From Candidatus Pacebacteria bacterium CG_4_10_14_3_um_filter_34_15 (GTDB lineage Bacteria > Patescibacteriota > Microgenomatia > UBA1400 > PJMF01), in NCBI GenBank assembly GCA_002783105.1, contig PFJN01000048.1, positions 1-34,976 on the forward strand: a stretch of 34,976 bases of DNA. Reading direction: 5' to 3'. A program made the position numbers and the translations under genes. The notes under the pieces were generated by a model. That model was not told the origin of the DNA and searched no databases. It saw nothing but the letters and a program-made list of their open reading frames with translations. This document shows positions 29,854 to 31,734 of this stretch, one piece after another. Each line of letters begins with the position of its first letter. Positions within the stretch are counted from its first letter, which is position 1.

Positions 29854-29878
29854 TTGAGTAAATAGGTTTTTCTATAAT

Positions 29879-29924
29879 TAATGCAAATTGACAAAAGTAA
29901 TGCAAAATGATATTATTAATGCAT
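29879..29924 (+). repeat. three TAATGCA direct repeats at exact 19-bp period (candidate operator)
   Basis: TAATGCAAA at 29879 and 29898, TAATGCAT at 29917. Confidence 0.65.
29888..29916 (+). promoter_or_regulatory. promoter of the AbrB/PIN operon
   Basis: Consensus -35 TTGACA (29888-29893), 17-bp spacer, -10 TATTAT (29911-29916); ATG at 29925 only 8 nt downstream. Confidence 0.65.
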
Positions 29925-30194
29925 ATGTCACAAATTGTATCTATAACATCACAAGGTCAAATTAGTATTCCAGCACAAATGAGGAGGTTTTTAGGTTTAG
30001 ATTTAGCTAAAAAAGCTTATGTTACTCAAGAAAATGGAAAGATTATTATTGAACCTGTTCCAGATCTTCTAACTTTGGCAGGATCTTTAAATTCTGTTGC
30101 AATTAAAAATAAATCTAGTGAAGAAATTCAATCAATAGAACAAAAAGCTGTTGAGCAAGTTCGAATAAATAAATATCTAAGCAAGAAAAAATAG
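29925..30194 (+). CDS. AbrB/SpoVT (VapB-like) antitoxin
   Basis: MSQIVSITSQGQISIPAQMRRFLGLDLAKKAYVTQENGKIIIEPV, swapped-hairpin AbrB motif. The supplied ORF start (29907) lies inside the promoter. Confidence 0.85.
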   Translation: MSQIVSITSQGQISIPAQMRRFLGLDLAKKAYVTQENGKIIIEPVPDLLTLAGSLNSVAIKNKSSEEIQSIEQKAVEQVRINKYLSKKK

Positions 30195-30226
30195 GTTAAA
30201 TATCTTAGAAATAATAGATTCCATTT

Positions 30227-30625
30227 ATGAAAAAACTATATGTAGATACAAATGTTTTTTTAAGATTTCTTCTACAAGATAATATCAAGCAAGCTAAAGT
30301 CGCTGAAAAAAATTTTATTTTGGCAAAAGACGAAAAAGTTAAAATAGTAATTGTTTCAGAAGTTATTCCAGAATTAGTTTATGTTTTGTCTGGTGTATAT
30401 AAATTATCAAGAGTAAATATTGCAAAATATATTGAGAATATTGTTAAAACTATATATTTAAATGTCGAGCAGAGGGATGTTTGGATTAAGGTTATGAGTA
30501 TTTATCCTCAGGTTAATTTTGATGTTGTAGATATATTTTTAGCTGTAAAAGCAAAAGAGGAAAATGGAGAAGTTTTGTCTTTTGACAAAGATTTTGAAAA
30601 ACTAGAGAAACATCTATCGATTTAA
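30227..30625 (+). CDS. PIN-domain (VapC-like) toxin
   Basis: KKLYVDTNVFLRFLLQD...SEVIPELVYVL...NFDVVDIFLAVKAKEENGEVLSFDKDFEKL: acidic PIN residues in order. Confidence 0.87.
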   Translation: MKKLYVDTNVFLRFLLQDNIKQAKVAEKNFILAKDEKVKIVIVSEVIPELVYVLSGVYKLSRVNIAKYIENIVKTIYLNVEQRDVWIKVMSIYPQVNFDVVDIFLAVKAKEENGEVLSFDKDFEKLEKHLSI

Positions 30626-30651: not shown

Positions 30652-31734
30652 ATGTCTTTATCAGTAGGAATAGTTGGTTTACCAAATGTAGGAAAGTCTA
30701 CATTGTTTAATGCACTTCTAAAGCGCCAAGCTGCTTTGGCCGCCAATTATCCTTTTGCAACCATTGATCCCAATATCGGAATTGTTCCTGTACCAGATGC
30801 ACGCTTGGAAGTTTTGGCAAAAATGGTTTCTGCCAAAGCAATTAAGCCTGCGGTTGTTGAATTTGTTGATATCGCTGGCTTGGTTTCTGGAGCAAGCAAG
30901 GGCGAAGGCTTAGGTAACAAATTTTTAGCAAATATACGCGAAACCGATCTGATTTGTCATGTCGTGCGAGGTTTTAGTGATGATTTAATTTTGCGTGAAG
31001 GCAGTACAGATCCAAAATCTGATCGAGAAGTAATTGAGATGGAGCTTTTATTAGCCGACATCACAACTTTGGAGAAGCAACGTCAGCCAAAAGCAACCAA
31101 AGACAAAGATTTATTGTTCAAGTGGGAAGTTGTTCAGAAAATGTTAAAAGTGGCTATTGATGGTCAAATGATTTCTTCTGCGCTTGCTTCTGATGAAGAA
31201 AAAAAAGTGGGCCGAGAAATGGGATTGCTTACAGCTAAAGAAATTATTTATATCATTAATGTCGACGAGAATGTGATTAGCGAGCAGGATTCTCAAATAA
31301 AAAATTATGCAGATCTTTTAAGCGTTTCTGAAGACAAAATCGTGATTATTAGTGCCAAAATTGAAAGTGAAATTGCAGCTTTGGCTGACGAAGATTCAGC
31401 CTTATTTTTGGAGGAATTGGGACTAAAAAAAAGTGGTTTAGAAAGACTAATTCAAACTGCTTATGATCGATTAGGTTTGCAAACATATCTTACTGCTGGA
31501 GAAATGGAAGTTAAAGCATGGACTATCAAAAAAGGTACCCTAGCACCTCAGGCTGCTGGCGTAATTCACACTGATTTTGAAAAGAAATTTATTAAAGCCA
31601 AAGTAGTTTCTTATCAAGATTTCTTAGATTTTGATGGTTGGAAGGGGACTAAAGAAAAAGGTAAACAGAGAATTGAAGGTAAGGATTATGAGATGCGAGC
31701 TGATGATGTTGTTGAATTTATGATCGGAACTTGA
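30652..31734 (+). CDS. ychF: redox-regulated Obg-family ATPase YchF
   Basis: SVGIVGLPNVGKSTLFNALLKRQAALAANYPFATIDPNIGIVPVPD, VDIAGLVSGASKGEGLGNKFLANIRE, C-terminal TGS-like domain AGVIHTDFEKKFIKAKVVSYQDFL. Confidence 0.96.
   Translation: MSLSVGIVGLPNVGKSTLFNALLKRQAALAANYPFATIDPNIGIVPVPDARLEVLAKMVSAKAIKPAVVEFVDIAGLVSGASKGEGLGNKFLANIRETDLICHVVRGFSDDLILREGSTDPKSDREVIEMELLLADITTLEKQRQPKATKDKDLLFKWEVVQKMLKVAIDGQMISSALASDEEKKVGREMGLLTAKEIIYIINVDENVISEQDSQIKNYADLLSVSEDKIVIISAKIESEIAALADEDSALFLEELGLKKSGLERLIQTAYDRLGLQTYLTAGEMEVKAWTIKKGTLAPQAAGVIHTDFEKKFIKAKVVSYQDFLDFDGWKGTKEKGKQRIEGKDYEMRADDVVEFMIGT

Follow-up and report, generated by a model that had tools for sequence, protein, structure and literature searches.

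Three putative operator sites phased at 19 bp through the core promoter of a VapBC operon with a predicted leaderless start in Patescibacteria

Upstream of a predicted toxin–antitoxin (TA) operon in the window (the whole 34,976-nucleotide stretch of DNA analysed here), three identical copies of TAATGCA are interleaved with a sigma-70-type promoter. The arrangement is best explained as an autoregulated VapBC promoter in which three VapB or VapBC operators are phase-locked to the core promoter and the mRNA is leaderless, a reading drawn from sequence to which a probability of about 0.8 is assigned. Each TAATGCA-centred site would bind one SpoVT/AbrB dimer, most likely as a VapB–VapC complex, and dimers seated 19 bp apart, one ahead of the -35, one between the two hexamers and one over the start point, would exclude sigma-70 RNA polymerase. 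Loss of the antitoxin would empty the sites and permit transcription from 29923-29925, yielding a leaderless mRNA whose 5ʹ end would coincide with the antitoxin AUG or lie no more than 2 nt from it; the toxin would be translated from this mRNA too. The features of the locus, in window coordinates, are as follows.

29879..29885, + strand: operator site 1 (predicted), TAATGCA, upstream of the -35; read directly
29888..29893, + strand: -35 hexamer TTGACA, 6/6 matches; read directly and conserved in the family
29898..29904, + strand: operator site 2 (predicted), TAATGCA, inside the 17-nt spacer; read directly
29908..29916, + strand: extended -10, TG at 29908-29909 and TATTAT at 29911-29916 (5/6 matches); read directly
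29917..29923, + strand: operator site 3 (predicted), TAATGCA, between the -10 and the start codon, across the expected transcription start
29923..29925, + strand: expected transcription start, 7-9 nt past the -10, from the spacing here and general sigma-70 spacing
29925..30194, + strand: AbrB/MazE-type (SpoVT/AbrB) antitoxin VapB, 89 aa, from profile matches and the family profile
30227..30625, + strand: PIN-domain toxin VapC, 132 aa; PF01850, 51.3 bits against a cut-off of 23.6, E=2.2e-13

Direct reading of the DNA reproduced exactly the anatomy given by the sequence-only reading, namely TAATGCA at 29879, 29898 and 29917, TTGACA and TATTAT 17 nt apart, and an ATG at 29925. The three copies follow one another with periods of 19 and 19 and reach up to the start codon, and the control unit as a whole occupies 46 bases. 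The promoter matches the consensus at 11 of 12 positions with a 17-nt spacer and additionally carries an extended -10. Transcription from sigma-70 promoters typically starts 7-9 nt past the -10. With the antitoxin ATG (29925-29927) lying 8 nt past this element, a start would be expected at 29923-29925, giving a predicted 5ʹ UTR of 0-2 nt; a -10 at this distance from the ATG, in the absence of an SD sequence, is the pattern expected of a leaderless mRNA. Two more in-frame ATGs, at 29907 and 29919 (MILLMHMSQ...), precede the expected transcription start, and the family alignment places the antitoxin start at 29925.

A predicted PIN toxin and an adjacent upstream antitoxin mark the locus as a putative VapBC type II TA system. 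The toxin scores 20 bits against the NCBIfam VapC equivalog, under the cut-off of 80, and a PIN-like gene follows the antitoxin in 155 of the 156 homologous loci with enough downstream DNA. The antitoxin consists of a DNA-binding domain (residues about 1-46) and a tail (about 47-89) that presumably binds the toxin. Its matches to PF04014 (24.3 bits, cut-off 24.7) and TIGR01439 (27.8 bits, cut-off 28.3) fall just short of the curated cut-offs, with E-values of 1.6e-6 and 3.1e-5 for the AbrB/MazE models, and the antitoxin family profile matches AbrB and MazE structure chains with E-values from 2e-4 to 8e-3. These matches, with the models marginally under cut-off, indicate membership of the SpoVT/AbrB domain family; a single-sequence fold of the protein was of low confidence (pLDDT 60, pTM 0.25). 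The gene order near 29.9 kb is cysS, GDSL hydrolase, antitoxin, PIN toxin and ychF, and a defence-system library search of the locus gave no match. The antitoxin–toxin gap (30195-30226) holds no SD sequence, and most homologues have about 0-20 nt at this place; the toxin may therefore be translated by coupling or by a non-SD route. The ychF gene (30652-31734) comes immediately after the TA pair both here and in G025, a genome of the same family. YchF is reported to regulate leaderless mRNA translation (PMC8138138); the adjacency of ychF to a leaderless-type operon is probably a coincidence.

Homologues were drawn from 138 relatives, 374 genomes of the class and named genome records, mostly metagenome assemblies, and yielded 158 unique loci encoding AbrB-type antitoxins in Patescibacteria, mostly Microgenomatia. 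Named records with homologues are mostly Microgenomates (Daviesbacteria, Woesebacteria, Collierbacteria, Roizmanbacteria, Levybacteria and Gottesmanbacteria), and these relatives place the genome of the window, presumably, in the Patescibacteria, class Microgenomatia. Start codons, set by antitoxin-profile alignment and thus independent of promoter position, are ATG in all 158 loci. A strong promoter, defined as a sigma-70-type score of at least 10.5 within 90 nt, a level reached by 1.5% of shuffled sequences, is present in 136 of the 158. That the transcript is leaderless, as the sequence-only reading proposed, gains support from the position of this promoter: the -10 ends 6-12 nt ahead of the aligned ATG in 122/158 loci and an SD-like sequence occurs in 6/158, and a strong promoter at 5-12 nt occurs in only 0.25% of shuffled sequences. 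Outside the class, a strong promoter ends 6-9 nt before the ATG in at least eight loci. Under the same scoring, about a tenth of the strong-promoter homologues have a leader of 20-56 nt. Among antitoxins with a QKGQ sequence (L022, L108, L112, L119 and L134), the best-scoring promoter lies about 32-33 nt before the ATG, and GTAATAC-type sites occur within the promoter and in the leader.

The 19-bp phase recurs across these loci. With the promoter hexamers masked, the upstream self-match is 0.545 at lag 19 and 0.502 at lag 38, compared with about 0.30 at most lags and with shuffle means of 0.316 (sd 0.008) and 0.318 (sd 0.015), placing the observed values 27 and 12 sd above expectation. The best lag is 19 in 70 of 123 loci. 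Within the class of loci with TAATG sites, copies stand at -9, +10 and +29 relative to the initial T of TTGACA (exactly so in 38/53, 39/53 and 29/53 loci, respectively), which is exactly the arrangement in the window. A fourth site, at -28, is present in nine loci. Sites within a locus also resemble one another more than sites permuted across loci do (6.33/6.11/5.93 of 7 positions vs 5.58/5.47/5.20). As 19 bp corresponds to about 1.8 helical turns, neighbouring dimers would sit on a slow spiral. Antitoxins of the K[FW]Q...HIP subgroup (L031, L054, L111, L122, L223 and L235-L238) have a 17-bp phase, not 19, and the first TATTG copy overlaps the -35.

Site sequence varies together with the antitoxin. 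By simple patterns, which left 33 of the 158 loci in no class, sites were assigned to TAATG(C/T/G)A, to GTA(A/T)TAC (in the form AGTAnTACT, palindromic around a central base) or to CCTTG/CCTTAC. The 63 TAATG-class loci have Gln at residue 10 in 62 cases and Asn in one, and the 62 loci of the other two classes all have Lys; conversely, all 62 Gln-10 antitoxins have TAATG sites and all 62 with Lys-10 have GTAnTAC or CCTTG/CCTTAC sites. Within the Lys-10 group, Ala at residue 5 goes with CCTTG/CCTTAC (28/29) and Thr or Ser with GTAnTAC (28/29). Some sites are inverted at unchanged phase, the behaviour expected of a dimer with two-fold symmetry. The association requires about five changes on a tree of the rest of the protein, two of them on supported branches, and is not phylogenetically significant; clade-linked and with few independent changes, this residue code is a correlation, not proof. 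Residues 8-11 of Shigella VapB have been proposed to enter the major groove (PMC3384007), and Trp-9 of MazE, which pairs with antitoxin residue 10 in a hand alignment, contacts DNA (PMC4803016). The residue-10 association agrees with this published structure work on both proteins.

The case that the antitoxin's own domain reads the repeats rests most heavily on an exchange in G025 (L012, G025:C32). The orthologous TA operon there lies directly upstream of ychF, as in the window, and the eight other relatives checked in which a full-length ychF was found gave no match to this TA pair beside it. The window and G025 loci share 68% identity in the toxin and 62% in the antitoxin tail but only 18% in the DNA-binding domain, and the G025 operator is AGTAnTACT in place of TAATGCA; the G025 promoter is less clearly defined than the window's. 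Of the 575 toxin pairs that are at least 45% identical, 397 have matching site classes, and the window–G025 pair is the only one with differing assigned classes. The proposal in the sequence-only reading that the repeats form the operator is consequently strengthened: three phased copies recur among the homologues, where their 19-bp phase with respect to the -35 is kept, in line with its proposed check of conserved spacing, their sequence tracks the DNA-binding residues, and domain and operator changed jointly in G025.

Readings in which the repeats are not the antitoxin's operator fare poorly. TAATGCA alone is unexceptional, with 10 occurrences in the window against 9.2 expected, and the region is AT-rich (about 33% GC), both of which would suit a triplet that arose by local duplication or by chance in AT-rich DNA and plays no part in regulation. 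However, the TAATGCA triplet is the sole case in the window of an identical 7-mer present three times at one spacing (7-40), and no four-letter 7-mer triplet of this kind appeared in 100 simulated windows (first-order Markov). Moreover, repetition is limited to the 7-bp core, with the -35 and -10 between copies, and the phase is kept in the family despite differing site sequences and either orientation. On the simulations and the conserved phase, chance or duplication was rejected as the triplet's origin and is scarcely credible. The repeats might instead bind another regulator, such as a host factor. Against this, the TAATGCA-N12-TAATGCA doublet is found at this locus only in the whole 1.0-Mb genome (72 contigs, of which the window is contig 58), and from locus to locus the site sequence changes with the antitoxin's DNA-binding domain; in G025 the site switched with that domain while toxin and tail stayed. 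A host regulator was rejected on the doublet's uniqueness and the G025 exchange, and is very unlikely.

A further alternative retains the repeats as operator but gives the transcript a short or normal leader, from the perfect TATAAT at 29873-29878 or an upstream start, with non-SD translation. This hexamer could yield a leadered transcript, SD signals are generally weak in this genome (SD-like sequence in 50/195 ORFs of a control gene set made up of 20 contigs plus the window), some homologues have the 20-56 nt leaders noted above, and homologues in Aquifex and Paenibacillus have SD leaders. However, the TATAAT is without a good -35, and the promoter that the homologues share is the interleaved one alone, which stands 6-12 nt ahead of the ATG in the 122 loci. 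A leadered transcript is accordingly rated improbable, and the autoregulated, leaderless VapBC promoter is preferred.

Leaderless-type starts are also seen elsewhere in the same genome. The pattern TTGACA-N16-18-TAnnnT-N5-10-ATG occurs 20 times, compared with 4 for the reversed pattern, whereas with the ATG 20-25 nt away the counts are 7 and 9; furthermore, -10-like hexamers are enriched 4-12 nt before the ATG of control genes. Leaderless-type genes include RelB-like antitoxins, HrcA, XRE-type, Fic-like and BRO-type genes, and several have inverted repeats spanning the -10 to the ATG. The idea that leaderlessness is special to the TA operon was rejected on two grounds, namely the genome-wide enrichment of the arrangement and the presence of several regulators or antitoxin-like genes among those that have it. 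At four loci (L259, G000:C67:4200-5500; L251; L250; L247), HrcA-like, RelB-like, DUF6364-like and another small gene have TTGACA-17-TAnnnT directly before the ATG and inverted repeats across the -10 to ATG region. Autoregulated genes of this genome seem to share, as a general design, a leaderless start with an operator placed on it.

Several characterized systems share parts of this arrangement. We know of no 19-bp direct triplet at E. coli mazEF, which has a MazF-type toxin and a palindromic operator. MazE nevertheless has the same DNA-binding fold, and residues of the same loop contact DNA (PMC4803016). Shigella flexneri VapBC likewise combines an AbrB-fold VapB with a PIN VapC, and its VapBC sites overlap the -35 and -10; however, two sites are modelled there as adjacent major grooves (PMC3384007), whereas the window has three, 19 bp apart, located upstream of the -35, in the spacer and after the -10 and ending at the predicted leaderless start. 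In Mycobacterium tuberculosis, antitoxin genes lack a 5ʹ UTR in 32 of 37 TA pairs with a mapped primary TSS (PMC3898074), and TA operators are reported to be centred on the -10 (PMC9477884). Starts were mapped in that organism, and its MazE6 is a ribbon-helix-helix protein with one 18-bp site; here an AbrB fold and three sites in Patescibacteria are deduced from sequence. Haemophilus influenzae VapBC-1 is similar in that VapBC footprints lie at most 50 bases from the vapB ATG, and differs in its inverted-repeat target and competition with Fis (PMC3302801).

Closer in spacing are two plasmid loci, Aquifex aeolicus ece1 (NC_001880) and a Paenibacillus amylolyticus plasmid (NZ_CP145893), where an AbrB antitoxin gene is followed by a PIN gene and AGTAATACT-like copies stand 19 bp apart upstream. 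Both differ from the window in their site sequence and in an SD-like leader between promoter and ATG; spacing and leaderlessness are therefore separable. VapBC autoregulation with sites over the -35 and -10 (PMC3384007) and leaderless M. tuberculosis TA operons (PMC3898074) were already known. The new element is the combination, in Patescibacteria, of a predicted leaderless start with a three-site lattice whose 19-bp spacing is conserved while the sequence recognised changes; a literature search, mostly without subscription journals, found no paper on such an arrangement in this phylum.

A broader interpretation can be put forward tentatively, at somewhat less than even odds. The lattice may belong to a phylum-wide modular repressor, in which three sites 19 bp apart are set in a sigma-70 core promoter and the DNA-binding domain and operator are swapped as a matched pair. 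A short code of residues, mainly 5 and 10, would set which site is read, and the lattice, the promoter, the toxin and the toxin-binding tail would remain constant. In Patescibacteria, leaderless translation would have cut this unit to about 46 bp, so that it moves with the operon. Almost no Patescibacteria are in culture, and hardly any work exists on how they control their genes; comparative sequence here supplies, together for a large antitoxin family, the operator and its spacing, the promoter, the start and candidate residues for specificity. If true, the interpretation would provide sets of mutually independent repressor–operator pairs and a clean test of how VapBC complexes are placed on phased sites, and would tie leaderless mRNAs to autoregulated genes outside mycobacteria.
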